Numbered from the stretch's first letter, positions 28,691 to 50,091 are shown. The stretch: DNA of 50,091 nucleotides from Candidatus Hydrogenedentota bacterium (GCA_019695095.1 JAIBAQ010000021.1:1-50091), one strand, 5' to 3'. Made by a program: numbers and translations. The notes: generated by a model from the letters alone, not told the origin.

Positions 28691-29206
28691 TTACACTCGG
28701 GGCGAGACGAAGGTCATGCTGCAATCAAGCCCTCTGGAGTCCTTCGCCGGACGGATGAAGTCGACCTTGTCGAGAATGATGAGGTAGTCGTTGGCGTAGA
28801 TGCGATACAGGACTTCCACGAGCTCCTGCCTATTGACGCCGTTTAGGCGCAGTTCCACGGCTGACACCTTGCTATCGGTTGGCGAGGCGGCACCGAGTTT
28901 GCTGGCGATATCGGCGCGCGACCCAAGGGACAACGCCTTCACAACGCCGTCGATATGCGACCACAAGTCGAATCCGCCTTGCTGCACGATCATCTTCTTG
29001 ACCGAATCGACTTGTTGCCGCGCGGTCTCGATTTCCGCGCTCCAGAGTTGGGCCTCTTGCAGGCGGAGCTTCGCGGCGCTGAGCTGAGTGGCGGATCTCC
29101 GGTACTTTTCCAAGGGACCCTGGCTAACCAGAAACAGCACGATGAACAGCAAGGCCATCGCGCCTACTCCCAGGAAGACTTTTTCTCGTTGTTGAAGCTT
29201 TGGCAT
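28691..29206 (-). CDS. gspM: Type II secretion system protein GspM
   Basis: 171 residues from the ATG at 29206, which follows GAGG; a GTG overlapping the gspL stop is five codons upstream. A short cytoplasmic start (MPKLQQREK) precedes one membrane helix (about residues 12-30, FLGVGAMALLFIVLFLVSQG). A coiled-coil (YRRSATQLSAAKLRLQEAQLW) and a ferredoxin-like periplasmic domain follow (VSAVELRLNGVNRQELVEVLYRIY, then LIILDKVDFI). This is the GspM/PilO layout. The protein pairs with GspL in the inner-membrane platform. It is the last gene of the operon. Confidence 0.85.
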   Translation of the reverse strand: MPKLQQREKVFLGVGAMALLFIVLFLVSQGPLEKYRRSATQLSAAKLRLQEAQLWSAEIETARQQVDSVKKMIVQQGGFDLWSHIDGVVKALSLGSRADIASKLGAASPTDSKVSAVELRLNGVNRQELVEVLYRIYANDYLIILDKVDFIRPAKDSRGLDCSMTFVSPRV

Positions 29207-29217
29207 GAATTTCCTCG

Positions 29218-30711
29218 TCACAAGCTCGCGGTGAAAGTGAATAGGGTCTTTCCCAATTTCTGTGAACGAACCGGCTCGTCTTCGACGTGCAGAATGGCAG
29301 ACTGTTTTAGACCCTCGAAGATCTGTGTGAATGCCTGAGTGTCCAGCAACTCGCACGACACCGAGACCATTCGCTTCTGCCCGGTTGACGGTCTAATCTT
29401 GACTTCGGTTACAAGCACCTTGTCTTGCGGAAGTTTCTCGCTCAGTTCTTTCAGAATGTCCAGCAACGGCGGTCTGGATAGCATGTCCGCGGAGATTTGC
29501 GATCCTGCCTTGGAAGTCTCTTCATACTCGCTGCGGAATAGTTCCGCCGTCTGTATGCCTCCGAGATCGTTTGCAGCACGGCCGCTCTTGACACTTTCGG
29601 AATTGGGGAACGACTTCGCGTACAGATCCCAAATCTGATCGCCAATCTGCTTAACTTCGGCCATGTTCTTGCGGTAGTCAACCACGCAGTAACCGACATA
29701 GCCAGCGACGACCAGCAGCACCAGGACGGCGGAAAAGACTGCGTGTAGTATGAGTCCGCGCCTGCCCCCGGGAGCTGCGAGTTCGTCCTTGCGGAATTCG
29801 AACGCAACACCACCGCCTGCCGCGGAGACGGACACGCCAATACAGGGCAGCCAGGCATCGACATTACTTTCCGGAAGGCAATTCGCGCCCTTGATTGACT
29901 CACCCAAGTCTTCGAAAACAACGGGCGTCTGCACTACAGAACAGAAGGCGTCGCGGTCAGCCGGATCCGGCGAAATACCAGTCACGGTCAGGTCTTCCAG
30001 AGGCGATTCACTCTTCCAATTCGCAAGGAACGCACGGATACAGTTCTGGACTTCGCGGGCCGCCGCGCCGGGGTCTTCCTGAAATCGCTCGGGCGTGAAC
30101 GTCAATTGGCGAAAGTAGGCCAGCGCTTTGTTGTACGTCACGCTGAAGATTGCGCCTGTACCGAGCAAGTGCACTTGTGCATGCAAACCGGAATTGCTCT
30201 TGCGCGAGGAAAGCCACATTGTCGATAGACCGGCGACATCGAGGTTGATGCTTTCAATCTCGACGCCGGCGGCATCGGCAATGGCGACATGCTCTTCCAG
30301 CATGGCCCGGCGCACGCCTACCGCGAGCACCTCGGTCTTGCCGTCTACTTCGCGGATTGCCCCGAAATCGACGATAAGTTCATCGATGGGAAATGCGAGA
30401 AAGGGTTCCAACTCAAATGGCACCGCGGCGGCGACGCGGGTATGCCCGCGGAAGGGAACTGTGATGGTGCGCGCCACGGCGCTCTGGCAGCTTTCGCAGA
30501 GCACAAACAGAGACGGCTTCGATTTGATTGCGCCAACGGCTTCACGCAGCGCCTGCGCAACGGCCTCCGTACGCTGCGACTCGTCCGCGTAGACGGCGCG
30601 CGCGGAGTGCGCCTCCAACACCGTGGGGCGCGCCCCACCGGTCTTGACCACGACGACTCGAACGCCGTCGGCGTCAAGCTCAACACACCCGATTTTTGCT
30701 GACAACTTCAC
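29218..30711 (-). CDS. gspL: Type II secretion system protein GspL (PilM-like domain plus periplasmic domain)
   Basis: 497 residues from a GTG at 30711 that overlaps the gspK stop (GTGA) and follows GGAG; a TTG five codons earlier is possible. Residues ~1-310 form the cytoplasmic actin-like fold (KIGCVELDADGVRVVVVK, PFELEPFLAFPIDELIVDF). A membrane helix lies near 322-344 (LILHAVFSAVLVLLVVAGYVG). A coiled-coil and a ferredoxin-like periplasmic domain (VLVTEVKIRPSTGQKRMVSVSC) follow. GspL connects the GspE ATPase to the inner-membrane platform with GspM and GspF. Confidence 0.9.
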   Translation of the reverse strand: MKLSAKIGCVELDADGVRVVVVKTGGARPTVLEAHSARAVYADESQRTEAVAQALREAVGAIKSKPSLFVLCESCQSAVARTITVPFRGHTRVAAAVPFELEPFLAFPIDELIVDFGAIREVDGKTEVLAVGVRRAMLEEHVAIADAAGVEIESINLDVAGLSTMWLSSRKSNSGLHAQVHLLGTGAIFSVTYNKALAYFRQLTFTPERFQEDPGAAAREVQNCIRAFLANWKSESPLEDLTVTGISPDPADRDAFCSVVQTPVVFEDLGESIKGANCLPESNVDAWLPCIGVSVSAAGGGVAFEFRKDELAAPGGRRGLILHAVFSAVLVLLVVAGYVGYCVVDYRKNMAEVKQIGDQIWDLYAKSFPNSESVKSGRAANDLGGIQTAELFRSEYEETSKAGSQISADMLSRPPLLDILKELSEKLPQDKVLVTEVKIRPSTGQKRMVSVSCELLDTQAFTQIFEGLKQSAILHVEDEPVRSQKLGKTLFTFTASL

Positions 30712-31766
30712 CGGACTTCTCTCCAATCCAGAATACGAAACCCATCGGGACCGCCCTGAGTGTCTCTGCGAACAAATGCTTCGATGCGGACCTTGCTGCG
30801 GCCCGACATCCCGTTTCCTTGTATACGAAATGCGCTACTGGCGATTACAAAGGGACGAAACTGCACTTGGCCTTCTTCCTCGCGGGGTTGTTGAATGCCG
30901 CGCGTCTCGAGATCGGACATGGACATGAAGGGCGCCGTCTCGCGTTCTTCGAGAATGATGTCCGCGATACCGGGTTGTCCGATGGCCTCGCCGACGGCCA
31001 CCAAGAGCTCGTGCTGCGCGGTATTGGCATTGACGCGCCCGCTTCGGTGCCCATAGACCGTCAGCAGCTCCGTCAGCGGCAACTGGTCAACGGTGCCGTT
31101 GCCGAAGAAGAGTTCAGGAGTGATGCCGCGGACCAGCAACAGTTCTTCAACCGAACTCATGGGGCCGTTCTTCGCGCGGTAGGGTACGGGCATCTGCTGA
31201 TAGTAGTCCGATTCGGCTCCCATCGGCTGGGGATCGTCGTCTTCGTCCAGCCAATCGATGATCGCATCGACAACGCTGGGGTCGCCTTGGCGCGCTTCAA
31301 TCAAACGCCGCAGAATCTCTACAACGTCTTCGCGTGGTTCCTGCGCGCGCGAGTTGAAAAGCGCGTTGAGATTCAGCTTGCCGAATTCGTCTTCGATGGA
31401 GCATTGCATCACGCCGTTGTTGATCTTCTGAAACGGAGTGCCCAACGCCCACACCTCGTCCAGGCTGTCGTACAATTCGGCGCCCTGGCGCTCCGACTCG
31501 CTGCCGCTGTCTTTCTTCGTGTCGTTTTGCTGCCCGGTCACTCCCAGGATGAGATCCTGGATGAGGAGGGACATGCCCGATGCGACACCGGATTTCGCGG
31601 CTATCAGCGCGTCGAAGTCATTCACGTTTGCCGAGACCTGGGATGTCTCGACCTGCGTCTCGTAGGTGAACTCAATGACCAGGGCCATCAATATCGCCAC
31701 AAAAAGCAACACGATCAGGAGGGCAATCCCCTCTTGTCCTTTTCTGCTTCGGGTGTGCGCGGTCAT
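30708..31766 (-). CDS. gspK: Type II secretion minor pseudopilin GspK
   Basis: 352 residues, much longer than other pseudopilins, as usual for GspK. A basic leader ends at RKGQEG, with processing after G13; the mature start is IALLIVLLFVAILMALVIEF. Mature GspK characteristically lacks the Glu at +5 found in other pseudopilins, and so does this one. The globular part includes DEFGKLNLNALF, VVDAIIDWLDEDDDP and GRVNANTA, the SAM-like helical insertion seen in GspK. It caps the pseudopilus tip with GspI and GspJ. Start and stop overlap gspJ (ATGA) and gspL (GTGA). Confidence 0.93.
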   Translation of the reverse strand: MTAHTRSRKGQEGIALLIVLLFVAILMALVIEFTYETQVETSQVSANVNDFDALIAAKSGVASGMSLLIQDLILGVTGQQNDTKKDSGSESERQGAELYDSLDEVWALGTPFQKINNGVMQCSIEDEFGKLNLNALFNSRAQEPREDVVEILRRLIEARQGDPSVVDAIIDWLDEDDDPQPMGAESDYYQQMPVPYRAKNGPMSSVEELLLVRGITPELFFGNGTVDQLPLTELLTVYGHRSGRVNANTAQHELLVAVGEAIGQPGIADIILEERETAPFMSMSDLETRGIQQPREEEGQVQFRPFVIASSAFRIQGNGMSGRSKVRIEAFVRRDTQGGPDGFRILDWREVR

Positions 31767-32710
31767 TGCTTACTGTCCCCAACTCCCCTGCGGGCACGCT
31801 CCATGTCTCGCTGTGTCACAGGGTCGCCTACGCCGTAATCGCGACCAGGGTCATAGTTGGGATCGCCGGGTTTCGGTATGCCTTGCTCGTCGAGCTCCGA
31901 CATCTCTTCGAACGAGCTGATGCTTCCTCCGTCCGCGGTCCGACCCAATCCGATGGGTAGCGGAACGACCACTTCAAAATCCGGTTCGTCGACGATACTG
32001 AAACGTTGTTCGGCTTCCTCGGCGAGTTGCGCTTCGGTTCGCGCAAAATTGATCCGAACGCGAATACACCAGGGCATCATGCCCAGCGCGGACGAGTCCC
32101 ACTCGGGTTGCCAATCGACTCCATCGTAGTATGAGATGTCCAGTGTACGAATCGGAACCGACCAGGAGGGAGCCTTCTCAAGCGGATTGGAGACGTCCTC
32201 GCGCTCGATCAGGGAATCTTCGGTAACGATTCCCCCGGTTTCATCGTCAAGTTCAACGACATTGCTCGCGACCAACGGTGTTTCAACGGCTTGAAGTTTG
32301 CGCTGTGCCATATCCAGCGTGTTGAGCACATTGGCGTTCATGGCGCTGGTGTCTGCGCCGAGCACATCGTAGCGCACTTCCTTGAGGTCGCCGGGCAACC
32401 CGGTTCCTCCGACCAGCGGCGCCATGGAAACAAAACGCAGGGAGTCGGCGGGGCCATCGGGACTCTCCTGGTCCATTCCCACAAGACGGAACAACGGGTC
32501 GCGTTGATCGCGATCGGTGTGCAGCGCGGAAAGATTGGTGCGAAGGCTGCGTTCGAGGAATTGGCGCAAACGCATTTCTTCGGCACTCACGCGGGTAGCG
32601 GCCATCGTTGTCGTGACGCCGGAGAAACTGGCATAAATCGCGGCCACGACGATCACAAGTATTGACGTCGCGATAAGCACTTCTATCAGGGTGAAGCCGC
32701 GAGTCTTCAT
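31763..32710 (-). CDS. gspJ: Type II secretion minor pseudopilin GspJ
   Basis: 315 residues from the ATG at 32710 that overlaps the gspI stop (ATGA). The leader is MKTRG with cleavage after G5; the mature start is FTLIEVLIATSILVIVVAAI, with Glu at +5. The body contains RTLDISYYDGVDWQPEWDSS and MPWCIRVRINF, the GspJ-type beta-rich core. It is long for GspJ: the last ~70 residues are a polar acidic tail (EEMSELDEQGIPKPGDPNYD). It forms the pseudopilus tip with GspI and GspK. Confidence 0.9.
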   Translation of the reverse strand: MKTRGFTLIEVLIATSILVIVVAAIYASFSGVTTTMAATRVSAEEMRLRQFLERSLRTNLSALHTDRDQRDPLFRLVGMDQESPDGPADSLRFVSMAPLVGGTGLPGDLKEVRYDVLGADTSAMNANVLNTLDMAQRKLQAVETPLVASNVVELDDETGGIVTEDSLIEREDVSNPLEKAPSWSVPIRTLDISYYDGVDWQPEWDSSALGMMPWCIRVRINFARTEAQLAEEAEQRFSIVDEPDFEVVVPLPIGLGRTADGGSISSFEEMSELDEQGIPKPGDPNYDPGRDYGVGDPVTQRDMERARRGVGDSKQ

Positions 32711-33345
32711 TCTTGCGCTCCTGGCAATTTGAAGTTGCCAGATTGCATCTGGCGGCGAATGTTTGCCGGGATTTGGCCCAGATTCGGCATGTTGCCGCCG
32801 TTCTGGCGTATCAACTCTTGCAGTTGCTCTTGCGTCATGCCGCCGGGGAGCTTTCCTCCGCCGCCCTGTTGCATAAGCTGCTGCATTTGCTCTTCCGTCA
32901 GCGCGCCCTGCGCCTGGAGACCTTCCAGGAGCGTCTGTGAATCCCTGGTCATCACAAAGATCTGGCGTTCTCGCGTTTCCTTCGGACCTTCCACGCGCAC
33001 CATGACATCGTACAATCCGGGGAAGCTTTCGCCCACGAGCTGCGCTTCGAACGAGTAGGAGAAGCCGGGATAACGGCGCCCAAATTCCTGGCTGTCGGAG
33101 AGCTTGGCGGTAGCCACGGACAATTCGGCGTAACCGATGGCCTCTGACATGAGGTTGCGCATCTGAACTTCTTCGCGAAGCGTATCCTGCGCGCGCAACG
33201 AACCGTAGTGCGCCTCCAACAGCACGAAAATGGCTGTTCCGAGCACGGCAAGCGCAATCATGACCTCTACGAGGGTAAAGCCCGCGGAACCGCACGCGCG
33301 AATTGTGTGGAGTCGTTTGAGATTGAAGGTTCGCGTCTTGCTCAT
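32707..33345 (-). CDS. gspI: Type II secretion minor pseudopilin GspI with Gln/Gly-rich tail
   Basis: 212 residues from the ATG at 33345, which overlaps the gspH stop (ATGA) and follows GGAG. A long 22-residue leader ends RACGSAG; the mature start is FTLVEVMIALAVLGTAIFVLLE. GspI proteins are typically near 120 residues. Here about 90 extra residues follow (from around residue 125), rich in Gln, Met and Gly: LTEEQMQQLMQQGGGGKLPG and GGMTQEQLQELIRQNGGN are two related units. The extension is unusual; its function is unknown. Confidence 0.9.
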   Translation of the reverse strand: MSKTRTFNLKRLHTIRACGSAGFTLVEVMIALAVLGTAIFVLLEAHYGSLRAQDTLREEVQMRNLMSEAIGYAELSVATAKLSDSQEFGRRYPGFSYSFEAQLVGESFPGLYDVMVRVEGPKETRERQIFVMTRDSQTLLEGLQAQGALTEEQMQQLMQQGGGGKLPGGMTQEQLQELIRQNGGNMPNLGQIPANIRRQMQSGNFKLPGAQE

Positions 33346-34116
33346 ACCGGCTGCTCCTTGCCGCGCCGCAGGTGGGAGTTTCCAGTAATGGGGTCCCACG
33401 TGACGGTGACGTATTCGCCGGACGCGTCGCGAAGCGTAAAGACGACAAACTCGTTGAGCCCGGCGGGAGTCACTTCGATCTCGACTTGGCCTTGCGTGTA
33501 GTCCACCGTTCCCACCCGAACCGATTCGATAACGACGTCGTTCGGCAACACCGTGCGTTGAAGCAGCGAAGTGACCACTTCTTCCCGGTCGTCTTCTTCG
33601 TCTTCGTCCAGCTTGAATTCTTTGTCGAACAAGGGGCCCACGTCGGAAAGGATGGAGTTGCGATTGACCGTGCGCGCGCGCGCCTCCAACGAGCGCATGA
33701 ACGACCGGTCGAACTGCGCCTTCACCTGAAGCGCGTAGTCGGACATGGCGTCGCCGTTTTCTGTGGCGAGCGCGAGCAAATCCTCAACAGTGGGATCCGC
33801 GGGCAGAGCCTGTTCTGCATTCTCCTGGCCCGAGTCGTCGAAAAGCTTGTTGGTTTCTTCGAGCCAACGAAGTGTGAAGTATTGCTGGGTCTGCAGATCG
33901 ACAACGACAGTCGCACTTTCCTGTTCAAGCGCGGTGTAGGCGGTGACAGAGCGCCCATAGCCCGCGACATGTCGGGCAGCCGAATCAAGTTGGCCAAAGG
34001 CGAGCGCCACCGACAGGCGCGGCATCGCGATAGCAATCGCCATGGCAATGATGCCGCAGACAATCACCAGTTCGATAAGTGTGAAGCCCAGGTCTCGACG
34101 CGACTTCGTGTTCCAT
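33342..34116 (-). CDS. gspH: Type II secretion minor pseudopilin GspH; no in-frame start codon, probable 1-base frameshift after ATG
   Basis: The frame continues past the stop of gspI's partner overlap and encodes GFTLIELVIVCGIIAMAIAIAMPRL then ~230 residues, ending VTWDPITGNSHLRRG. Upstream of GFTLIE the frame reads NTKSRRDL, a typical basic leader, but contains no ATG, GTG or TTG; the first in-frame GTG (34067) would remove the leader. An ATG at 34116-34114 is followed by one extra G (34113), after which the frame gives AAC ACG AAG. Removing that G yields MNTKSRRDLGFTLIEL. The protein is also long for GspH, with an acidic insertion (KLDEDEEDDREE). Functional only if the start problem is an assembly error or is bypassed. 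Confidence 0.75.
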
Positions 34117-34144
34117 GACGTCGAATCGGCCCGCGCTTCGCAAG

Positions 34145-34591
34145 CTACTTTTGCGCCTGAAGGTTCCAGCTTTCGATGTCCGTGTTGTATTCGGTGCCGC
34201 CTGGTGCGCCATCAGCTCCAAATGAGACAACTTCGAAATCGTGCCCTTTTGTCCCTGGGCACGTGTATTGATACGGATTGCCCCACGGATCGCTTGGCAC
34301 GTTGTCTTCATTCAAGAAGTTCTGCTTTTCGTTGCTCACGAGCGCTTGCAGTCCTTCGCTGGTACCGGGATAGCGTCCGAACTTGAGTTTAAACATGTCG
34401 AGCGCGGTGCGAAACGAGTGAATCTGAGTTTGGGCCGCTCGCACCTTGGCATCGTCCGTGGCGCCGATCATGCGCGGAACCACTACAGCCATGAGCAAAC
34501 CAAGGATCACGATTACGACCATCAATTCGATGAGCGTGAATCCTTCCCGGTTCGTGAGCCGCTTTGCGGAGGTGTTTGTCGCGCCGTTCAT
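34145..34591 (-). CDS. gspG: Type II secretion major pseudopilin GspG
   Basis: 148 residues, normal length. The leader MNGATNTSAKRLTNREG is cleaved after G17; the mature protein starts FTLIELMVVIVILGLLMAVVVP with Glu at +5. The globular domain has AQTQIHSFRTALDMFKLKFGRYPGTSEGL, then DPWGNPYQY and EVVSFGADGAPGG, the GspG calcium-site region. GGAG precedes the start. It is the main building block of the pseudopilus that pushes substrates through the secretin. Confidence 0.96.
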   Translation of the reverse strand: MNGATNTSAKRLTNREGFTLIELMVVIVILGLLMAVVVPRMIGATDDAKVRAAQTQIHSFRTALDMFKLKFGRYPGTSEGLQALVSNEKQNFLNEDNVPSDPWGNPYQYTCPGTKGHDFEVVSFGADGAPGGTEYNTDIESWNLQAQK

Positions 34592-34618
34592 GATTTCATC
34601 TCCTTTGCCGGGCCGCCA

Positions 34619-35833
34619 CTAAACGCCCGAACTCATTTCGAAAATAGGCAACAGGATGGACATGACCAAAGTTCCTACCAAGGCGCCCATCACCAATATC
34701 ATCATCGGTTCTAACAGGCTGACGATGCCGTTGACCGTCAGTTCGATGTCTTCGTCGTAGGTATCCGCGACCTGCGTCAACATGCTCTCCAACTCGCCGC
34801 TTCGCTGGCCCAGTTCGATCATGTGAATCAACATGGGCGGGAAGTAACCCGTCTCTTGCAGTGGCGTGGCGAGATCGCGGCCCCGGCGGACGCTGCTTTT
34901 GACGTCGTCCATCAGTCCCTCGATGACGCGATTCTGCACGACCGTCTTCACGACATCGAGCGCGGTCATCATGGTAAGCCCGCTTTGCAGCATTGTGCCC
35001 AGCGTGCGCGCGAAGCGCGCGCTGGTCATCTTCACGTAGAGCGGACCAAGCAGAGGCAAGCGAAGTTTCAGCTTGTCCCATTTGAGACGGCCATCCGGGC
35101 GCGATACCCACATGCGCCAGAGCACGTACGAGCCGATCGCGGCGGCAATAATCAGTATCCACCAGTCCTTGATGAAGTAACAGGTGCCCATCATCACTTT
35201 GGTGATGGTGGGTAGTTCCCGATCCTGTTTCTCAAAGATTTGAACAATCTTGGGGACAATGAAGGCCATTAGAAAGGTCACGACGCCAAAACCGACGAAG
35301 GCCATCAGCACGGGATACGCGAGCATGGATGTTATCTTGTGCTTCATGCGGACGTTGCGCTCGGTAATGTCGGCCAAGCGCGCCAGCACGCTTTCGAGCG
35401 CGCCGCTCGATTCGCCGGCGCGAATCATGTTCACGAAAAGCTCCGAGAACACCTTCTGATGCGACGCCATCGCGTCGGCAAGCGAAACGCCTTCGTTGAC
35501 GCGGTCGCGAACGTCGAAAATGATCTTGCGCAGGCGCGGGCTGCTGGTTTGCGCGATGAGCGCCGTGAGCGCTTCGACCAGCGGCATGCCCGCCTTGAGC
35601 AGCACGGCAAGTTGGCGGGTCATCAGCGCGAGATCGCGTTGGCTGATGCGGGACAACCCCGCGCCGCGCTCTTCGCGGCCCGTCGCGCTCTTCTCGAACG
35701 TGGCCTCGATGCGTGTCGGATGCAGTTCCTGTTCGCGCAATTTGCGGCGCGCGGCGGCAGGCGTGTCCGCGTCGATGGTTCCACGCACCGTCTTGCCGGT
35801 CTTTGCCAGAGCTTGGTATTCGAAAACAGCCAT
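34619..35833 (-). CDS. gspF: Type II secretion inner-membrane platform protein GspF
   Basis: 404 residues. The N-terminus FEYQALAKTGKTVRGTIDADTP is the family signature. Two repeated GspF cytoplasmic domains (about residues 70-190 and 275-395) carry LMTRQLAVLLKAGMPLVEAL and FARTLGTMLQSGLTMMTALD, each followed by helices and the GE..G motif (GESSGALESVL, GQRSGELESML). Membrane helices lie near 175-200, 220-240 and 375-397. It anchors the pseudopilus assembly machinery. It begins 4 bp after the gspE stop. Confidence 0.96.
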   Translation of the reverse strand: MAVFEYQALAKTGKTVRGTIDADTPAAARRKLREQELHPTRIEATFEKSATGREERGAGLSRISQRDLALMTRQLAVLLKAGMPLVEALTALIAQTSSPRLRKIIFDVRDRVNEGVSLADAMASHQKVFSELFVNMIRAGESSGALESVLARLADITERNVRMKHKITSMLAYPVLMAFVGFGVVTFLMAFIVPKIVQIFEKQDRELPTITKVMMGTCYFIKDWWILIIAAAIGSYVLWRMWVSRPDGRLKWDKLKLRLPLLGPLYVKMTSARFARTLGTMLQSGLTMMTALDVVKTVVQNRVIEGLMDDVKSSVRRGRDLATPLQETGYFPPMLIHMIELGQRSGELESMLTQVADTYDEDIELTVNGIVSLLEPMMILVMGALVGTLVMSILLPIFEMSSGV

Positions 35834-35837
35834 GAGA

Positions 35838-37580
35838 CTAGTCCGTCACCTCGAGAAGGATGTCATCACGCGTAACGCGCAAGACCTCCTCGATGGTTGA
35901 CACACCCTGGAAAACCTTGGCCGCGCCGTCTTCGCGAAGCGTGCGCATGCCTTCCTTTTTGGCTTCGCGCTTGATGACGTTCGAGTCGGCTCCGCGCACG
36001 GTGAGGTCTTGGATTTGCGGTGTCATCACCAGGAGTTCAAAGATTCCCGTTCGTCCGTAGTAGCCGCGGCCTTGGCACTTCTCGCAGCCCTTACCCCGGT
36101 AGGCCACGCGGCCCTTTGCGGTATCGCGCGGGATGCCGAGCTCAAGGAGGCTCTCCAGTTCGGGTTCGTACGGCTCTTTGCAGTGTTTGCAGATATTGCG
36201 CACCAGGCGCTGCGCCATGATCGCAATGGTGGACGAACTGACCAGGAACGGTTCGATGCCCATGTTCACAAGACGCGTGACGGCGCCGGCGCTGTCGTTC
36301 GTGTGCAGCGTGGAGAACACCAAGTGACCTGTCAACGAAGCCTGAATCGCCATGTCGGCCGTTTCGAGGTCGCGGATTTCTCCGATAAGTATGACGTCAG
36401 GGTCTTGGCGCAGGATGCTGCGCAGTCCGGCGGCAAAGGTCAGGCCAATCTTCGGACGTACTTGAATCTGACCAATACCGGCCATCTGATATTCAATAGG
36501 GTCTTCGACGGTGATGATGTTCTTGTCGGAAGAATTCACGCGCTGAATGGCTGCGTACAGCGTGGTGGACTTTCCGGAACCGGTGGGTCCCGTGACAAGC
36601 AGGATACCGTGCGAACTTTGAATCAACTTGTCGAACAGGCCGTAGTCGTGCGGATCCATACCGAGTTGTTCGAGACTGAACAGGAAGTTTCCCTTTTCCA
36701 GGATACGCATCACAACGCGTTCGCCGTAGGCAACGGGGATCACGGACACACGGATATCGATTTCTTTGCCGCTCAGACGAATCTTGATGCGTCCGTCTTG
36801 CGGGAGGCGGTGTTCGGCGATGTTGAGATTCGCCATGATCTTGATGCGCGATGTAATGGCCGCCTGCTGCGACTTGGGCACCGTTAGCTTCTCGTAGAGC
36901 ACACCGTCGATGCGGTACCTGACGCGCACGTCGCGTTCAAATGGCTCTACGTGGATATCCGAAGCGCGTTCTTTCACGGCGCCGGAAATCAACAGATTGA
37001 TGAGCTTGATGACGGGCGCTTCGTTGGCCAGATCGAGCAGGTCGCGTTCGGAATCGAGCGCATCCAACGTCGCGACCTCGCCTTCGTCTTCGTTTCCCGA
37101 TAGGACGATGGTATCGATCATGTCGCGCGCATTCTCGCCCTGCTGATCGAAGTAGCCGTCAATTACCGCTTGGATCTCTTCGTCGCGGCACAACACGGGA
37201 AGCACGGGGCCGCCTAGTAGCAGCCGCAGATCGTCGAGCGGCAACAGGTTCACGGGGTCGTTCAGTGCGACGTAGAAAGCCGTGCCGTTCTTTCGGAAGG
37301 GCACCATGCGGTATTCACGAATGAAGTTGATGGGGGCCTTGGTCGAGAGCGAACTATCGAGCTGACCCTTGATATCGCGCTCGAAGGGAATGGCAAATTG
37401 CCGGCTGAGCGCTTCGAGAACGTGGTCCTCCTCCACGTACCCGAGATCCATGAGGATTTCGCCGATACGTTTGGGCCGGATCTTCTGCAGTTCGAGCGCC
37501 TCGGCAACTTGCTCCTGATGGACATGACCCAATTCCAACAGGATCTCGCCGAGCAATAGCGCTCGTTGCGTAGCAGGCAC
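35838..37580 (-). CDS. gspE: Type II secretion ATPase GspE
   Basis: 580 residues from a GTG at 37580 with AGAGG upstream; a start at 37619 would run into gspD. An N-terminal MshEN/GspE-N domain includes LLLGEILLELGHV and RIGEILMDLGYV repeats. The ATPase core has Walker A GPTGSGKST (from residue 331), an Asp box VEDPIEY, Walker B DPDVILIGEIRD and the His box LVFSTLHTNDSAGA. The zinc module has paired CxxC motifs (CKHC and CEKC). It powers pseudopilus assembly from the cytoplasm through GspL and GspF. Confidence 0.97.
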   Translation of the reverse strand: MPATQRALLLGEILLELGHVHQEQVAEALELQKIRPKRIGEILMDLGYVEEDHVLEALSRQFAIPFERDIKGQLDSSLSTKAPINFIREYRMVPFRKNGTAFYVALNDPVNLLPLDDLRLLLGGPVLPVLCRDEEIQAVIDGYFDQQGENARDMIDTIVLSGNEDEGEVATLDALDSERDLLDLANEAPVIKLINLLISGAVKERASDIHVEPFERDVRVRYRIDGVLYEKLTVPKSQQAAITSRIKIMANLNIAEHRLPQDGRIKIRLSGKEIDIRVSVIPVAYGERVVMRILEKGNFLFSLEQLGMDPHDYGLFDKLIQSSHGILLVTGPTGSGKSTTLYAAIQRVNSSDKNIITVEDPIEYQMAGIGQIQVRPKIGLTFAAGLRSILRQDPDVILIGEIRDLETADMAIQASLTGHLVFSTLHTNDSAGAVTRLVNMGIEPFLVSSSTIAIMAQRLVRNICKHCKEPYEPELESLLELGIPRDTAKGRVAYRGKGCEKCQGRGYYGRTGIFELLVMTPQIQDLTVRGADSNVIKREAKKEGMRTLREDGAAKVFQGVSTIEEVLRVTRDDILLEVTD

Positions 37581-37590
37581 GTCGATACCT

Positions 37591-40281: not shown

Positions 40282-40292
40282 TGTGGTTTCCG

Positions 40293-41207: not shown

Positions 41208-41961
41208 CACTGGCCCCTACCAACAACCGAAGCTATGCAACAGCTTTCGCGACATCGCGAAGCCGCGCGGTTGGATATTATGATATGACACCATTGGCTT
41301 GATCCGGTCACTGAAGAGAGTCTTTCGTCTCTGCTTTGGCCAACCTGCGAGTCGGATCTCACATATTCCCCTGTCGACACCTTGGTGTCTGCAACGCGGG
41401 CTCAAGTTGTGCGATTCCAACACGTTCCGACCTAATTGACTAACGCCCCCCAAGGCGGCATGGTTGACGCTAGCCGGTTTGACGACACTCACAGAAATGA
41501 CCTGGAACCGAGTCCGTAGCTGAGAAAAGAGTCTACCTGAGCCTCGAAATCGAAGTAAAGCAACGTCTGCAATTTTCGCGATGAAACGTTCTGGCTTTTG
41601 ACCACGCTGAGGCTTCCAATTGGTGTTTTCACGAGCGTGCGCGAAGCCGTCTCGTACCAGAGCGTGGTCGTGATTGGCATAGTCTCAACGTCGCACGCGT
41701 GAACATGCTGCGTCGGCGCAGAATGCTCTCTCCCACGTTCCCGCTAGACCTGCGGCAACCGTCCAGGTGCAGGGAGATCCTAGGATTTCTTCTCAACTGG
41801 GCCGTGACGGCGCCCACAGGTTGCGGCTGCACAACTGGGCTTACATACCATATACGGTAGAGTTTGGTCTCTGAGGTTGAACCCACCCTGTCGTCGGTTG
41901 TTCCCTGCCTTAAAGCGCGTGCCAGGCCCAATACTCGGATGCAACCAGCGTTTAACGAGAA
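41208..41961. other. Gene-free region upstream of the gsp operon
   Basis: No convincing gene. A tight dyad TTCGCGA-CA-TCGCGAA lies at 41246-41261, in what would be the 5' leader of gspC. An AT-rich patch at 41270-41285 offers a weak minus-strand -10 (CATAAT or TAATAT) without a good -35. The operon promoter should lie in this stretch because the upstream gene has its own terminator at 41962-41987. Confidence 0.5.
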
Positions 41962-41987: not shown

Positions 41988-42019
41988 CTTGATGATGCGT
42001 GTGTTGAGGAAGATAGCTT

Positions 42020-44374
42020 CTATTCTTGCTTCTTCTGCTCTTTATCGACTGTACGGATATACGACTTGAAGTTCTCCAGATCTACTAAAAGGCGGCCATC
42101 CTGCGGGGAAGAGGCGTCTTTGGTCTTACCGTCCGCGCCGACGGTCTTTAGTTTCAGGCCGTGCTTTTCCATTTTGGCCGATTCTTTGACAAGGCGGTTG
42201 TACGCGGGAAGAACTGTGGGAGTCACGTACTTCTCGCCGGTTTCGGCGTCGGTTTTCACGGCGAACTTGCCGACCTTTCCGCCAATACACACGTTGTCGT
42301 AGACGCGATCATCCTTAAGAAACAGGAATACGTCTTCACCTTGCTTGAACTCGGGCAGTTCCTGCGATGAGCGGCCAATTGCACCAACTCTGCCCGTAGG
42401 AAGACGTAAGTGAATCGAACCGTTCTTATTGAGTTTTCCCTTGGCTGTATCCGTCACCTTTACGATTACATCCGTGTATATCTGGAGACCGTCGTCGGTT
42501 GCAAACGTATTTGTCGACTCGACCGTACCTTCAACTATGTTGTCTGAAGCCGCTACGATGTCGGAGACATCCTCGTACGGTACGAGTTGTGCGTTCGCCA
42601 AGGGTGCAAGGGCAAACAGCAACAGGGGAAGGACCGCAGCGGAACGGCGCAATCTGCGTCCTCGTGCAACCATCGATGCCAAAAGTCCCGCCATGGCAAC
42701 ACTGAGCCATTCTGCGTGTACGACTACCCACTCAAGCCCTTTCATTAGCATTCTTGTCAGGGCCAATATCGTATCGTGGCGCGTTAGGAACTGCGCCAGC
42801 GTCGGCGCAACCCGGTAGTACGCATCCATGACGGCGGCGCCAACCGCATTGGATAGCAGGACCTGGTCGCGGAATTCGCGTAGCATTTTCGGCGCTTCAA
42901 TGACGTTGATTCCCGAAACCACTACGTTGAGCGGGCAGGTCTGATTTTCGTCTCCGAACATCGGCCTTCCGGAAGCCAACAAGACATCCAACGTCTTGCC
43001 GGTCGTATTACTCACGATCTTTCGGGCATTCAAGTCATACCGAAGAGGCGTCCCCTGGTTGACATTTGTTAGGCCGAATATATTGCCGTTCTCACCTTCA
43101 CGAAAGACTTCCGCAGGAAACTGCGAATCAAAACCAAACCCTGCACCGCGATGAATCTCATCATAGACCCCGCGCTCATCACCGCCAAAGATATCCGGAA
43201 GAAACTCACTGGAAGAGATGGTGTATGTGGGCTGGAACGTGGTTTGGCTTATCGTCTCCAACTGCTTGAATAGACCCTTCAGCCTGAAGTGACCTCGGAA
43301 ATCGGTATTCACGGCGTTCTCATAGTACCCGGTGAACGTGTCAACAAACGGGACGCGTGATGTGCCCGAATTGTTGTCCGCATCGCACCACGCCCGAATC
43401 CAGGCGCCGGCAATCGGTTGCGACGGTAGATTCTGACGTGTTTGGGTCCGTACGCGCTGGTCTAAGTTGAAGAAGATATCCACGTCGGTGCGTGGATACA
43501 TGAAGGTGATTCCGGCAATATCATCGGGTGCCAAGTCTTGATGTGAATCGGTAAAAGCTCCGCTTTCTTCCTTGTAGTACATGAAATCGTTGTACATGGT
43601 TGGCGTCACACCGCGTAAACCAATCGATCCGTCAAAATTCCGCAACGCCACGACCCGGTCTTCAATATTGACGCCTGCCTGGGCAGAATCGGTTGGGTCA
43701 AAATTGTTGAGAGGACTCCATCTCAGGCCAGCCACTTCTCCGCCGGCAAAAACTCCAACTCCCTTTATGATGGGACCCAAGCTCGTTGCTTCCGTGTCTC
43801 TGGCCTTTTGAGCAACCACTGTGTCGACATCAATCATCTCGCCGGCATCATAGTTGACGGTGGAATTCCCGATGACTATGGTCGTCGCTTCAAACGTATT
43901 CGTCACCAGGGTAGCGACCATCGATCCGCCAACTATACTGCCGTTATCTTCGGCGTCTTGAGTGGATTCAAACACCACCACATTAAAGGCATCGATCTGG
44001 GTAAGGTCGGCAGTTAGCTCGACAGGATCGACAATATCCTGTCCTCGAAAGAATGCCATGTAGGCCGTTGAAACCTGCTCCCACTCTTCGAATCCGGCAA
44101 AAACTTTGTCCACTTCACTGGAACTGAAACCGTCTTCTCCGTTGCCCGTTTCGAAGTTGAGCTCGACGCCTTCGTCGTCGCCGCTCACGTCTCCGTCGCC
44201 GTTCACGTCAAGCACGTCGAGCGGCCACTTGATGAACGTTAGAGCGCCTCCATTGAGAGTGTCAAAAAAGCCGTAGGGATAGAAAGCGAATGCGTGGGAC
44301 GTCAGCATCATCGCCGCCATCACGCAAAATGCCAGGCGAAAGAATCTCTGGGGGTTGCTGCTCACTGTACGCAT
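42020..44374 (-). CDS. Exported matrixin-like pseudoprotease with internal degenerate CFI-box tail fused to a second exported domain
   Basis: 784 residues from the ATG at 44374 (AGAGGAA upstream). The signal peptide is residues 1-29. Residues ~30-280 follow the matrixin pattern: FAGFEEWEQVSTAYMAFF, AFNVVVF, GEMIDVDTVV and LAPDDIAGITFMYP. The usual HExxHxxGxxH is replaced by FAGGEVAGLRW (209-219), although TMY with M260 is kept. A CFI-box-CTERM-like block starts at C480 and continues REFRDQVLL, AVMDAYYRVAP, a membrane helix and RGRRLRR. In frame, M568 then begins a second signal-like segment (VLPLLLFALAPLANAQ) and a ~190-residue domain (VEGTVESTNTF, GEDVFLFLKDD). It lies between the large CFI-box gene and gspC. 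Confidence 0.8.
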   Translation of the reverse strand: MRTVSSNPQRFFRLAFCVMAAMMLTSHAFAFYPYGFFDTLNGGALTFIKWPLDVLDVNGDGDVSGDDEGVELNFETGNGEDGFSSSEVDKVFAGFEEWEQVSTAYMAFFRGQDIVDPVELTADLTQIDAFNVVVFESTQDAEDNGSIVGGSMVATLVTNTFEATTIVIGNSTVNYDAGEMIDVDTVVAQKARDTEATSLGPIIKGVGVFAGGEVAGLRWSPLNNFDPTDSAQAGVNIEDRVVALRNFDGSIGLRGVTPTMYNDFMYYKEESGAFTDSHQDLAPDDIAGITFMYPRTDVDIFFNLDQRVRTQTRQNLPSQPIAGAWIRAWCDADNNSGTSRVPFVDTFTGYYENAVNTDFRGHFRLKGLFKQLETISQTTFQPTYTISSSEFLPDIFGGDERGVYDEIHRGAGFGFDSQFPAEVFREGENGNIFGLTNVNQGTPLRYDLNARKIVSNTTGKTLDVLLASGRPMFGDENQTCPLNVVVSGINVIEAPKMLREFRDQVLLSNAVGAAVMDAYYRVAPTLAQFLTRHDTILALTRMLMKGLEWVVVHAEWLSVAMAGLLASMVARGRRLRRSAAVLPLLLFALAPLANAQLVPYEDVSDIVAASDNIVEGTVESTNTFATDDGLQIYTDVIVKVTDTAKGKLNKNGSIHLRLPTGRVGAIGRSSQELPEFKQGEDVFLFLKDDRVYDNVCIGGKVGKFAVKTDAETGEKYVTPTVLPAYNRLVKESAKMEKHGLKLKTVGADGKTKDASSPQDGRLLVDLENFKSYIRTVDKEQKKQE

Positions 44375-44446
44375 TTCCTCTCTCTCGCTTTTGGTCCAGG
44401 CCGCACGCATGCCGTAACTGAATCGTCCCATCATGACAAGGATGGG

Positions 44447-47400
44447 TCAGGAGGCGCAAGCCGCCCGGCGCAACTTGCGCCGAACGGCTCGGCCAATTAC
44501 AAACCCAAGGGTCAACATCAATAGCAGCGAAGGCATCTCAATCGCCCACGCAACGGGAGTCAGAACCAGACGGACTAACCAGGCCAAGAATGGCGACTGC
44601 GCGACCGTGTCGGCGATAGCCGGGCTGGCCGTGTAGTACGCGTCAACCAAGGCCGTGCCGGCAGACGATTTCAGCAACACGGCGTCGCGGAACCACCGGA
44701 ACGCGTCCAGATGTTCGCTGAACGGCGTACCGAAGGCAGCCGTGGCGATAAAGCAACCGCCGCCCGGCAAACCACCACCGCCCTGGAATCCACCACCGCC
44801 GCCGCCCGGAGAATTCACGTACGTGAATCCGTCGGTCAGCGTGGTCGACAGCAGCGTAGGCTGGTTTTGAACCGTTATGTCGAGTGCTCCCGTCGTCGGG
44901 AGGCCGCCCACCGGGAATCCCACGATAATCTGATTGGCCGTATACGACTGAACCGGCATCAGCGTACTGCCGAAGTACACCTTGGGATCGATAAATCCGC
45001 TTCCCGTGATGGTCACTGGGAACACGGAACTGGTACCCGAAGACGGATTGACTCCGGTGATGGACGGCGCTGTACCTCCCGAACCTCCGATGGTAAACGC
45101 GGCGTACAAACCGAACTTGCTGTTTGACGTGTTCGTAACGCGCAACGTAGCCACTGAATTGTCGTCCGGATCCATGGTCGTGCCACCCGGAATCGTCGCC
45201 GTGATGGACGTGCTACTGGAAGTAATAATCGTCAAGTTCACGCCGTCGATGGCCGCCGTCGGCGCAGTACCAAAGTTCTGGCCGGTGATTTGGATGTTCA
45301 ACCCGCCCGCGGAAATCGTCTTGGGAAGCTGGTTCGGCACGACCGCGGTGATAATGACGTCGTTAACCTGCCCTTGTTGCGTTGCGGCGGTCACGGTCCG
45401 TGTCTGCTCGGACTTGTTCACCGTTGAACGCACCCAATTAAACCCGCTGTTGTCCACTTCGGGATATTGCTTGTAGTACTGCTCGTCCTCGAAGAACGTG
45501 ATCAGGCCGACGGCCCGCGCTCCCCACGGGAATTCGCTGAACACATCGAACTCGCCGACACGCGTAGCCGGAGGCGGCGGGAACGTATCGGGATCGGGTT
45601 CGGTGGGCGTGTTGGGACCCCACGAGACGATACCCACACTGAAGTCGTCGCCCGCTTCAAGCCCGTCGGAGGTGCGTATCACGACGAAGAAATCGTCGCC
45701 GGTGGCGGGGTCGTTTGTGCCGGAACCGAAACTGTCGGGCACCCATTGGCGATGCCGCGTCTGCGACACGCGCGGCATGGGCACGTTGTCCGTTCCCGGC
45801 GTCGAGAACACGAACATGACTTGCGTGCTGGGTTCACCCGCTTGACCGATCAAGAATGGCTCATAATCGACCTCAACGGGAATGTCGGCGCTGTCAAACA
45901 CGCCGTTCACGCCGTCGTAGTCGTTGTCGCGGTAAATCGCTACGCCGCTCTTCTTCGGATCTTTATTGAACGGAAGCAAGTCGTCCAGGATATTAAACTT
46001 TCCGTCGTTGCCTACGTCGTAGAATTCGACAATCAACTGCTCAAGGAACGTTGGATCTCTTACGATGCGGTACGGGCCGTTCTGGGGCGTGCCGCTTTCC
46101 AACGTCAGCGTGTTGGAGGTGTTTCCGGTAATCAAGAACTGCTCGAACTTGCGGTCTATCAGGAAGTACCCGGTAAAGGCGCCGGAACTCCACGCGGCGC
46201 CAGGCACAGAAAATGTCCCCAATGCCCCGTTGCCCAAGGCTCCTTGCGCCGCGGTTCCGACAGCATCGCCTCGGTTCGTGCTGATGCTGACACCGAGGAC
46301 GGCCGTATCGGCGCTGTTCTTGACGATAGTCTGGCCCGTGCCCGTGAGACCTGTGATCTTCACGCCCACATTCGCTTCGAGCATGTCGAAACCGAAGGGG
46401 TCGGGGCCCCAATACTTCGCCACGGGACCTTCTTCCGGCTGGGCCTTCTCGTAGATGGCTGTGCTGATGGGCATCTGAGGTGTCAGTTGCAGCCCTGCCA
46501 GCTTATCGGATGCCGTGGTGCGCGTAGGCAGTGTCGACGGCACAAGAATCCGGAACTGCTCGAAGCGCTTGATGGTTTCCGACGTACGGACAATAACGAA
46601 AAGGTCGTCGCCGCCGTTGCCCGAGGGACCGATGGCTTTCGTCGTCACCGTATTCGGGTCGGACCCATCCTCCTTAAGTTGGTACATCTGAGGCTTCTTG
46701 CTCCAGAACCCATCGCCGGCAGGCGTCGGATTAACGGCGGATACCAGGGACCCGTCTCCGCTGGCGCTCGGGCGAAGCAGACTGTCTTCGCTCTGAGTGG
46801 CTGACTTATCGGCCTTCACGGCTGTCTCTGAAGAGAGAGACTTGGTCGCCGTGCCCACGTTACCACCTTCGGCGTCGATTACTGGCAATTGCCAAGGCGA
46901 TGTTGGCCGCAGCCGCAACACCCAGGCATTGTCTGCCGAGGTTACGACGCCATCGCCGTTCAGGTCGTCTGCAACTCCGTCGCCGTCCAAGTCGATCGGT
47001 TCGGCGGCGGTCTTCCATGCCAGCCCGGTCAAGGGGACCACGGAATCCACCGTCAACTCATCAACAGGTGCGGCTTGGATGCCGAATACGCCGTCGCCAT
47101 TCGTGTCTTCCACAAGGGCCACGCCAGAGCTTGTGCTAATGCCCAGAGGATCGAGCGTCTGTAGATCCGAAGGCGTGAAGTTGGGGCCCCAGAAGGCTAC
47201 GGTCAACTGCTGCATCTTGATCCGCGCGAACTGGTTGACGACCGAATCGTCGGCGCCGCACAGATTTACGCCAAGCATAGCCACGGGCCGGCTCAGTATT
47301 TCAACGTGCTGTTTTAGGTAGCGAGCCCTTCTGTTGTTCAGGCTCCAATTGAACTCTTCCGGATACTCATCCGGCAGCAAGCTCGCAGGCCAGGTGACGT

Positions 47401-50056
47401 ACCGCGGCAGCGTGGGCAGCGCGGGCGGCGTCGTGAAGAACGACGAGCGCGGTCCGTAGGGAGGCAGATCCCAGTCGCTGCTGAAGAAAGGCACTGTTTC
47501 ATACGGATACTGGAACGAATCGAGCTGCTGATCGTCCACCAACGTACCGTTGACAGTCTTGTAATAACGTGTACGATAAACACCGATGGTGTGATAGTCG
47601 AGGAAGCGCGCGCTCGATAATCCAAAAGGATCGAGCCACGTGTCAAAATTCGTAAGAACGGGATCCACGTTTCCGAAGATATCGCGCGGGGAACCGAGCC
47701 CCAGCATGCGGAAGCCCCCACCAGTCGCCAGTTCCGAATCTGACTCGCCGTACGCCAACTGCGTCACGCGCGCATACAAATTGTTCGTCTCGTAGTTGAG
47801 AACCAGGTCATGGAACTCAGCGCCCGAGCGGACAGGCTTCGTGTTGCGCGACTGCTGAGTGCGTTCCGGCCAGAACGGTTCCGCCGACAACCAACGCGCG
47901 TCGTCCTGCCAGCTCGCGCCAAATAGGACTCCCTCACCGATCAGTGAATCCTCGGGAACCATGGGGGTCGCATAGATACCGCCGTCCTCGTGACCCGCGA
48001 GCCCGTTGGAATCCTGATAGTTCGGGTTGAAGCGGCGAGGTTCGATAAACGCGCGGAAATCCGCGCCCATGGTCAATCCAATGCCATCGCCGGGGTTGCC
48101 GGAAATGTCGGCATAGCCGCTGTCGGGTCTCGCCACAACGAAGTAGTCGCTTTGGAACGAGCTCGTATCGGAGAACTGGCCAATCTCATGCTTGCTTTCG
48201 GAAGTAGGCTCAAGATAACCCGTTGGGAGTTCCTCGGGCGCGCGTCTTCTGTCGCCCCAAAGGCGCAGCCTAATCTTCCACCACGGGTCTCCTCCACCCG
48301 GCGGATTCGGAATGTACTCCCATTGAGGCAAGCCAGGGTTCACTTCGTCGGGATCCTCAAATACCCTGTTGCCCTCGGTGTACATGGGATGGTCGGTGAA
48401 AGTCACACCGGGGAACGAAGGTGTTGGCACATCGAACTTTCCGTTGCCGTTCGTATCGTGATAGACGCTCAGCCCGTTGAAGGCATAGTCCAGCCCGAAC
48501 GCGCTGTGCGCACTATTAACGCCCGTGTCTGTAAAACCCTCTAGCCCCTGTGTCGGATTGAATCCTCCGTTTCCGGGAGGGCCATTGGGATCGGCACCGA
48601 TATCCGTAAGAACTACGTTCACCTCGGTCATGGCGCCCACCCCGCGAACCGTAGACGGTCCGTGAATGTTGATCCCGATCAAAGGAATGAATTGTTCCGT
48701 GGGTATGAGCCTGCGCAGGTCCAGGCATTCACCGGCCACAAAATCGAACGCGCTGCCACTTACGTCGAAACGCGGACGGCGGTATTCGCCGATGGGCGTG
48801 TAGACATGGTTGACCCAGTTCCACATATTCGAGTCGTCCATGGTCACGTCGCTGAAGTAGCCGCCCGTGATGTCCCAAACACCAAACGATGATGCGTAGG
48901 AAGCGCATATCAGTTCACTGAAGTACCCACCGTCGCCTGCAGGGTCGTAATTGTCGAGGGGGCCTCCGTCATCTTTTAGCGGAAATTGCCATGTGTCCCG
49001 TACCACGGCAGTGACACCGTAGACGCGGCAACTCAATGTCAGGGCATGCCGCCATCTGGCCGCTGTGCGGACTAGCAATATGTACGCTTCCCCACCGGGT
49101 CGATACAAACCATCTTCAGGCGCCGTCCCACCAGTATACTGATGCGTGGACATCCAGAAGTCGGGGACCGCGCCGGGCGGCGTTCCAAAAAGATTCCATT
49201 CATATCGGAAGATATGGTTCGTGTAATCCGAAGTCACGGTAATGTTCGCGGGCTTGCCGTCCAGGGGCGTCCCGTCTGGCGCGAAGTAATGCAGCGTGTC
49301 CGTGTCATCATCGGTGTAACGGCCCCACAGATCTTCGGGGTCGTCGTGAGTCCCCTCTCGCACCCACTTGAACTCAAGCAGGTCTGAGAGCGCTAATTGG
49401 CCCTCAAACGCGTCGTACGGCCGCCCGCCCGGCGGTTCCGTCTGGTCCTCGCGAATTTCCCATGCAAGGCTACGCATCAGACGAAATCCGATGTTCTCGT
49501 CCTCGTTGGACGACTTCATCGCGACACGAAACAGCGGTACCCAATCGTTCAGCGGCAACAGGCACGCTGTGTCCGGAATCATATCGGTAACGGTGATGTC
49601 CACCGAAGGCTGTTCCGTGATCTTCACGTACGCCTCTTTGGTAATCGATTCGATACTGCTATCGGTATAGACAATGGACATTGTGACTTTGTAGTCGCCA
49701 GGCTTCAGAAAATAGACTTCTGCCCAAGTCGTACCGAGCGTAGGGTTGGTCGCCGCGGCTGCGTCAGTACCGAAATCCCAGAAGACTTGACTTATCGTTT
49801 TGCCCGGACTTGGAATCGGCTCGAAGAATAGCCATCTCGGCGCTTGAGCCGTTACATATGGATTGCCCGATTCGTCTGACAGCACGGGCAGTTGAAAGTA
49901 CTGTCCCGAATCGGGCGGGAATTCCTTGAATACCTTAAAAGATGCTTGCGCATATGCGGCGCTAGAACCCACAAACGTCAACGCACACACCGCGCTCATC
50001 GCGACAAGAAGGGACCGCACCGCGCGAACCGATCGGTTGCTTGTATTAACGCGCAT
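44447..50056 (-). CDS. Giant exported protein with IPT/TIG domains and C-terminal CFI-box-CTERM tail
   Basis: 1869 residues from the ATG at 50056 (an adjacent GTG at 50059 is closer to GGAGG). The signal peptide ends near SSAAYA. A PKD-like domain is at ~60-130 (QVFWDFGTDAA, FLKPGDYKVTMSI). A long unassigned region contains dockerin/EF-like turns (DTNGDGVFG, DLDGDGVADDLNGDG) and a thrice-repeated FVVxRTS-G..GDDF module near residues 635, 1150 and 1455. Two IPT/TIG domains lie at ~1545-1740. After a Gly-rich spacer, CFIATAAFG (C1768) opens the CFI-box-CTERM tail: FRDAVLL, VDAYYTASPAIAD, a membrane helix and a basic end RRKLRRAACAS. It is likely a surface-anchored or processed secretion substrate. 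Confidence 0.88.
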   Translation of the reverse strand: MRVNTSNRSVRAVRSLLVAMSAVCALTFVGSSAAYAQASFKVFKEFPPDSGQYFQLPVLSDESGNPYVTAQAPRWLFFEPIPSPGKTISQVFWDFGTDAAAATNPTLGTTWAEVYFLKPGDYKVTMSIVYTDSSIESITKEAYVKITEQPSVDITVTDMIPDTACLLPLNDWVPLFRVAMKSSNEDENIGFRLMRSLAWEIREDQTEPPGGRPYDAFEGQLALSDLLEFKWVREGTHDDPEDLWGRYTDDDTDTLHYFAPDGTPLDGKPANITVTSDYTNHIFRYEWNLFGTPPGAVPDFWMSTHQYTGGTAPEDGLYRPGGEAYILLVRTAARWRHALTLSCRVYGVTAVVRDTWQFPLKDDGGPLDNYDPAGDGGYFSELICASYASSFGVWDITGGYFSDVTMDDSNMWNWVNHVYTPIGEYRRPRFDVSGSAFDFVAGECLDLRRLIPTEQFIPLIGINIHGPSTVRGVGAMTEVNVVLTDIGADPNGPPGNGGFNPTQGLEGFTDTGVNSAHSAFGLDYAFNGLSVYHDTNGNGKFDVPTPSFPGVTFTDHPMYTEGNRVFEDPDEVNPGLPQWEYIPNPPGGGDPWWKIRLRLWGDRRRAPEELPTGYLEPTSESKHEIGQFSDTSSFQSDYFVVARPDSGYADISGNPGDGIGLTMGADFRAFIEPRRFNPNYQDSNGLAGHEDGGIYATPMVPEDSLIGEGVLFGASWQDDARWLSAEPFWPERTQQSRNTKPVRSGAEFHDLVLNYETNNLYARVTQLAYGESDSELATGGGFRMLGLGSPRDIFGNVDPVLTNFDTWLDPFGLSSARFLDYHTIGVYRTRYYKTVNGTLVDDQQLDSFQYPYETVPFFSSDWDLPPYGPRSSFFTTPPALPTLPRYVTWPASLLPDEYPEEFNWSLNNRRARYLKQHVEILSRPVAMLGVNLCGADDSVVNQFARIKMQQLTVAFWGPNFTPSDLQTLDPLGISTSSGVALVEDTNGDGVFGIQAAPVDELTVDSVVPLTGLAWKTAAEPIDLDGDGVADDLNGDGVVTSADNAWVLRLRPTSPWQLPVIDAEGGNVGTATKSLSSETAVKADKSATQSEDSLLRPSASGDGSLVSAVNPTPAGDGFWSKKPQMYQLKEDGSDPNTVTTKAIGPSGNGGDDLFVIVRTSETIKRFEQFRILVPSTLPTRTTASDKLAGLQLTPQMPISTAIYEKAQPEEGPVAKYWGPDPFGFDMLEANVGVKITGLTGTGQTIVKNSADTAVLGVSISTNRGDAVGTAAQGALGNGALGTFSVPGAAWSSGAFTGYFLIDRKFEQFLITGNTSNTLTLESGTPQNGPYRIVRDPTFLEQLIVEFYDVGNDGKFNILDDLLPFNKDPKKSGVAIYRDNDYDGVNGVFDSADIPVEVDYEPFLIGQAGEPSTQVMFVFSTPGTDNVPMPRVSQTRHRQWVPDSFGSGTNDPATGDDFFVVIRTSDGLEAGDDFSVGIVSWGPNTPTEPDPDTFPPPPATRVGEFDVFSEFPWGARAVGLITFFEDEQYYKQYPEVDNSGFNWVRSTVNKSEQTRTVTAATQQGQVNDVIITAVVPNQLPKTISAGGLNIQITGQNFGTAPTAAIDGVNLTIITSSSTSITATIPGGTTMDPDDNSVATLRVTNTSNSKFGLYAAFTIGGSGGTAPSITGVNPSSGTSSVFPVTITGSGFIDPKVYFGSTLMPVQSYTANQIIVGFPVGGLPTTGALDITVQNQPTLLSTTLTDGFTYVNSPGGGGGGFQGGGGLPGGGCFIATAAFGTPFSEHLDAFRWFRDAVLLKSSAGTALVDAYYTASPAIADTVAQSPFLAWLVRLVLTPVAWAIEMPSLLLMLTLGFVIGRAVRRKLRRAACAS

Positions 50057-50091
50057 CACGTCTTAGACCTCCTGATACGAACAGAAAAACC

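Follow-up and report, generated by a model that had tools for sequence, protein, structure and literature searches.

What do two large exported proteins do when their genes stand at the head of a type II secretion (gsp) operon, and does the C-terminal tail of one of them mark it as cargo for that system? The question arose from a contig of a Candidatus Hydrogenedentota bacterium (GCA_019695095.1, JAIBAQ010000021.1:1-50091). The whole stretch of DNA that was analyzed, termed “the window” herein, comprises 50,091 nucleotides and is contig C21 of a 6.77-Mb draft genome in family f1; family codes (f1–f11) and genome handles (G000–G067) are labels from the genome searches. On the minus strand, the genes run in the order cfiA, cfiB, gspC, D, E, F, G, H, I, J, K, L, M, down to position 28691; the names cfiA and cfiB were assigned here to the two exported proteins upstream of gspC-M. 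A sequence-only reading of the window had described the gspC-M set with two large exported proteins upstream on the same strand, and this arrangement was borne out by hidden Markov model (HMM) matches and by its recurrence through the phylum. The same reading had proposed that tails of the CFI-box-CTERM type (NF041770) mark cargo for the type II machine. The answer reached here, which is given about an even chance of being correct, is that the pair cfiA-cfiB is a module of two genes within the Hydrogenedentota type II operon, made up of an anchored surface cargo and a protease-like partner.

The tie to type II secretion rests on gene order. Both cfiB and gspD were detected in 51 genomes and were found on one contig in 32; in 31 of the 51, cfiB lay directly upstream of gspD on the same strand at a distance of 1.6–2.9 kb, which leaves room for gspC. 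The 31 linked genomes span nine families, and the gene order persists while CfiB identity falls to about 30 percent. Genes for a CfiA-like protein and for CfiB occupy the operon head wherever contigs allow. The two markers were on separate contigs in 19 of the 51 genomes, some of these at contig ends. Nearly all of the 34 named cfiB loci are labelled Hydrogenedentota or Hydrogenedentes. Judged from genome length, chance closeness of cfiB and gspD would be expected in well under 1 in 1000 genomes of such size. The order cfiA-cfiB-gspC-gspD is a real unit, and its tie to type II secretion is well supported.

The cfiA gene (44447..50059, minus strand) encodes 1870 amino acids (aa), and the contig ends 32 bases upstream of it, so the start of the operon is out of view. 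Both CfiA and CfiB have a signal-peptide-like start. The C-terminal part of CfiA features IPT/TIG and choice-of-anchor-Z repeats, with a choice-of-anchor repeat right before the tail. The tail begins with a full CFI-box (44552..44755, minus strand; residues 1768–1835) that contains CFIATAAFG; a membrane segment and a basic end come after it. The match to NF041770 covers model positions 1–68 at 76.5 bits (E-value 1e-21; 83 bits in the genome search), compared to a cut-off of 40 bits; with the CFI Cys motif in its C-terminal region, CfiA is a member of this family. The second tail that had been described, an aberrant copy in CfiB, turned out to be an internal segment (residues 516–564; NF041770 positions 17–65, 51.7 bits, E-value 6e-14) with about 240 residues following it, and it corresponds to 42740..42889 on the minus strand (positions 17–66, 55 bits in the genome search). 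CfiB also exceeds the cut-off but is not a family member, as its segment is internal and the Cys part is missing. Because of these E-values and the recurrence of the arrangement through the phylum, the CFI matches are not attributed to chance.

The CFI-box is not a constant part of CfiA. The orthologues read in f2, f3 and f5–f11 lack it; the same TIG-like repeat is followed in them by a short tail with an invariant Cys, a near-invariant Asp, a membrane segment and basic residues. The Cys is present in all 17 aligned short tails, and every complete CfiA tail that was read combines a Cys, a membrane segment and a basic end. For seven short tails, no named CTERM model matched at E-values up to 10, and the searches returned one weak match to a MYXO-anchored protein family. 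The two tail types are separated by one change on the cfiB tree, and a single swap accounts for both; as the tree has no root, it leaves the direction of the exchange unfixed. A search with a short-tail model gave 162 matches (E-values up to 0.01, CfiA included) in 43 non-f1 genomes, with up to 10 per genome, and only 15 weak matches in 25 f1 genomes. Other carriers include large proteins with choice-of-anchor D/Q, LapB or OmpL47 domains. Its recurrence on such proteins outside f1 gives the short tail the look of a real sorting class, one that f1 almost lacks. Family f4 is mixed: genomes G035 and G027 have a CFI-box on CfiA plus nine or ten short tails elsewhere. A true tripartite tail, of the Cys-helix-Arg kind, does occur on CfiA of other families and on other large surface-type proteins; it is not the CFI-box.

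CfiB, an open reading frame (ORF) of 804 aa (42020..44434, minus strand), has a domain order that is conserved in the alignment of its relatives. The first domain is matrixin-like: Pfam Peptidase_M10 (PF00413) was matched in 14 of 26 members (best E-value 4e-7), and Foldseek returned serralysin and matrix metalloproteases. Of 50 genomes, 24 have an intact zinc site (HExxHxxGxxH) and 26 have lost it, with five changes on the tree; the window belongs to the latter group, and its site reads FAGGEVAGLRWSP. This domain is followed by the Cys-less CFI-like helix, then by a membrane segment, a turn rich in Arg, another hydrophobic segment and an AxA signal-peptidase motif; in the alignment, 25 of 26 relatives have AxA at this position. 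The last domain (42020..42586, minus strand), located after the internal motif ANA in the window, was modeled alone by AlphaFold2 with a predicted local distance difference test score of 92.5. Its top 17 PDB matches in Foldseek were all of the NTR type (probability 0.97–1.0, E-values 1e-3 to 0.08) and included the PCOLCE1 NTR domain, TIMPs, agrin NtA and complement C345C. The cysteines that form the TIMP disulfides have no counterpart, there being no invariant Cys in the domain (alignment A4). A sequence search of the PDB with CfiB and with its C-terminal domain gave nothing useful. An assembly or frameshift artefact was ruled out as the origin of the long ORF, since nearly all relatives have one ORF with the same domain order.

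In two genomes, cfiA and cfiB are fused in frame as single ORFs (L093:4328-12418 and L101:4109-12445, both plus strand; 2697 and 2779 aa). The order at the fusion junction is the CfiA Cys tail, an Arg cluster, a hydrophobic stretch, AxA and mature CfiB. Because the fusion junctions are built like the one inside CfiB, its internal stretch is read as a captured signal peptide, and cleavage at its AxA by signal peptidase is predicted. Stand-alone relatives of the TIMP/NTR-like domain with their own signal-peptide-like start were also found (L261:1747-2403, minus strand; L262:1064-1933, plus strand).

The earlier reading had noted that no processing enzyme is visible in the window, and none was found among the rhomboids, exosortases and CPBP proteins of the genomes searched. 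Rhomboids are present in all 18 genomes tested, and their presence does not track the short tail; that of exosortases does not follow it either. Only one CPBP group tracks the tail in part, with members in 7 of 10 short-tail genomes and in none of 8 others, but the sequences that were read have lost EE, H and HxxxN, and the group is therefore unlikely to supply the protease. None of the three candidates fits cleanly as a protease that tracks the tail. The CPBP-like membrane proteins are 311–342 aa long, with a longer ORF in G037 (L173, at G040:C28:17515, and L174, L175, L176, L177, L178 and L179), and lack the first Glu of EExxxR and both His motifs.

The gspC-M set spans 28691–41210 on the minus strand. 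Four of its products exceed NCBIfam cut-offs, namely the secretin GspD (37591..40281; TIGR02517, 440 bits, cut-off 351), the ATPase GspE (35838..37619; TIGR02533, 681 bits, cut-off 630), GspF (34619..35833; TIGR02120, 462 bits, cut-off 424) and the major pseudopilin GspG (34145..34591; TIGR01710, 144 bits, cut-off 89). Pfam cut-offs are exceeded by GspC (40293..41210; PF11356, 44 bits, with a PDZ domain) and GspK (30708..31766; T2SSK, 84 bits), and GspL (29218..30726) is above the PilM_2 cut-off (34 bits), its T2SSL match being weak. GspM and the minor pseudopilins are weak by HMM. GspM (28691..29356) was assigned by position and a T2SSM match of 20 bits, below cut-off; GspJ (31763..32725) has an N_methyl motif and a T2SSJ match of 16 bits, also below cut-off; the GspI-like minor pseudopilin (32707..33399) has the N_methyl motif; and the GspH-like one (33342..34067), for which no Pfam match was obtained, was assigned from gene order and likeness to pseudopilins. 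The set was classified as a Gsp operon because D, E, F and G exceed their curated cut-offs and share the operon with C and K-M. No prepilin peptidase GspO is encoded in the operon; the rest of the genome was not searched for it. The gap between cfiB and gspC (41211–42019) measures about 810 bases, longer than that of most relatives (mostly <520), and contains no terminator, promoter match, structured RNA or Rfam match. A second high-scoring GspD-like secretin lies off the main operon in several Hydrogenedentota genomes (G017:C17, G020:C135, G004:C168, G014:C642 and G027:C628); two of these secretins have an in-frame TAG.

Known systems offer partial parallels. In Myxococcus xanthus, MYXO-CTERM proteins, which have Cys-helix-Arg tails, are reported to need the type II system to reach the surface, and MXAN_5598 has acquired an internal MYXO-CTERM through gene fusion (PMC11980579). 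The likeness lies in large, putatively Sec-exported surface proteins and, for the short tails of the relatives, in a Cys motif, a membrane helix and an Arg-rich end; the internal MYXO-CTERM is paralleled by the cfiA-cfiB fusions. Unlike MYXO-CTERM, the short tails match no MYXO-CTERM model, cfiA adjoins gsp, and the tail in the window is a CFI-box instead; in contrast to the myxosortase system, no CPBP protease with a full set of catalytic residues was observed in step with the short tails. The GlyGly-CTERM/rhombosortase system of Vibrio also has a tripartite tail on type II cargo, but no GlyGly-CTERM match was found here, and rhomboids, which were searched for without the rhombosortase model, show no link to the tail. 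The halves of CfiB resemble matrixins (M10) and NTR/TIMP domains by Pfam and Foldseek; unlike in those proteins, the zinc site of the window is broken, the TIMP cysteines are absent, and both halves reside in one ORF with a membrane hairpin between them.

The gene order, tail exchange, domain make-up, AxA motif and zinc-site loss are read from the sequences themselves, whereas transport by this type II system, the membrane topology, signal-peptidase cleavage, any direction given to the exchange and any effect of CfiB on its partner are inferred. CfiA, a very large surface protein, would be exported by the Sec pathway and held in the inner membrane by its C-terminal tail, after which the adjacent type II machine would move it to the cell surface; it is likely a cargo of this system. 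The anchor is exchangeable, a single replacement having taken place between the Cys-helix-Arg tail of most families and the combination of CFI-box and membrane helix in the lineage of the window. CfiB would be split at its internal AxA by signal peptidase I into two halves, one protease-like and tethered to the membrane, the other free in the periplasm, and would most likely serve the maturation, folding or release of CfiA. Because its zinc site is lost, the CfiB of the window could act only by binding. A bolder version, in which CfiB is a bacterial polyprotein of a matrix metalloprotease and a TIMP-like domain, separated by signal peptidase, that matures a type II surface protein with an unnamed Hydrogenedentota class of Cys tail, is tentative and judged unlikely to hold in full.

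CFI-boxes occur well beyond this locus. A plasmid search located them in a haloarchaeon, Acinetobacter, Burkholderia, Xanthomonas, Paracoccus, a cyanobacterium and others. A Clostridioides phage, pCD1602_4 (CP069348.1:30720-30926, minus strand), has a CFI-box with 41 percent identity over 69 residues, in a record that bears no annotation. Each Hydrogenedentota genome encodes only a few CFI proteins. A second family with the CFI-box, also conserved and about 1260–1590 aa in length, with GGPCFIATAAYG and a membrane end, is not near gsp (L056, L057, L058, L060, L061, L068, L070, L075); by HMM, it is absent from the genome of the window. An exported serine-protease-like protein of 529 aa (L035:4866-6455, plus strand; G000:C48) has a Cys-less CFI-like end with no membrane helix, and similar proteins of 530–580 aa occur across the phylum. 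A literature search on the CFI-box and on type II secretion in Hydrogenedentes returned nothing relevant from the library that was covered.

These carriers bear on the proposal of a dedicated protease that cuts the CFI-box as a tag of type II cargo. The position of cfiA beside gsp, with a full CFI-box, membrane helix and basic end, speaks for it, as does the precedent of the GlyGly-CTERM and MYXO-CTERM systems. However, the three carriers that were read (P0001, P0002, P0003) have neither a signal peptide nor a membrane helix by hydropathy: a Haloquadratum protein (84 bits) and an Acinetobacter plasmid protein (83 bits), whose N-terminal parts were read as restriction/WYL-like and TPR-like, respectively, and a Burkholderia cold-shock protein (87 bits). 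These cytosolic-type boxes outscore that of CfiA, and archaea are not known to have a type II secretion system. In addition, only the cfiA/cfiB locus adjoins gsp, the other Hydrogenedentota CFI-box proteins (the family of ~1270 aa and the shorter serine-protease-like one) being located elsewhere, and in most families CfiA lacks the box and is still encoded beside gsp. The refuting outcomes that the earlier reading had named are thus borne out in part. The cytosolic and archaeal carriers rule out a general type II tag; as a general rule the proposal is largely refuted, and in any form it is highly improbable. What survives of the link between CFI proteins and secretion is the gene pair, tied to gsp in most of the phylum, and not the box as a marker. 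The most fitting view of the CFI-box is that of a small domain of general occurrence, which in one lineage makes up part of an anchor. Even less probable is that CfiB with an intact zinc site trims Cys-tailed proteins: the site is indeed intact in nearly all gsp-linked short-tail families and lost in most of f1, where the short tail is nearly absent, but five changes on the tree are too few for a test, f10 has short tails without the site, and some f1 genera have the site without the tails.

It could also be that CfiA and CfiB are accessory parts of the machine, such as a surface cap or an assembly factor. Their constant place at the operon head and their persistence as a pair would fit, but the length of CfiA varies from about 1750 to over 2600 aa, its anchors are exchangeable, and in f10 the pair resides apart from gsp while gspD is kept; this explanation is doubted. 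Somewhat less doubtful, and still unlikely, is that the genes are neighbors by descent only, encoding surface proteins with no functional tie to secretion. All carriers belong to one phylum, and f10 separates the genes and loses neither. Against this stand the order and strand kept over nine families despite the low identity of CfiB, and the turnover upstream of cfiA, where, in the few loci that have sequence, no gene recurs except between two close relatives. The reading of the pair as cargo and partner faces difficulties of its own. The pair is truly apart from gsp in f10 and in one f9 genome (G032), so linkage is not obligatory, and the 31 linkages are not independent events, because the genomes share ancestry. 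No processing enzyme was found among rhomboids, exosortases and CPBP proteins. The TIMP/NTR likeness is at the level of the fold (E-value about 1e-3, template-modeling score about 0.5 to the target, no conserved cysteine), and for that reason a fold is claimed and a function is not. Finally, CfiB proteins that have lost the zinc site still have the NTR-like domain, an argument against a simple pairing of protease and inhibitor.

Genes for type II cargo are usually scattered in the genome and hard to predict; this uncultured phylum appears to mark its main type II cargo through gene order. The natural exchange of tails on one protein separates the anchor from the constant part, and it thereby becomes testable whether Cys-helix-Arg tails from unrelated families share one function. 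The findings also correct the idea that the CFI-box is a sorting tag, and CfiB presents protease-like and TIMP-like domains fused in bacteria.

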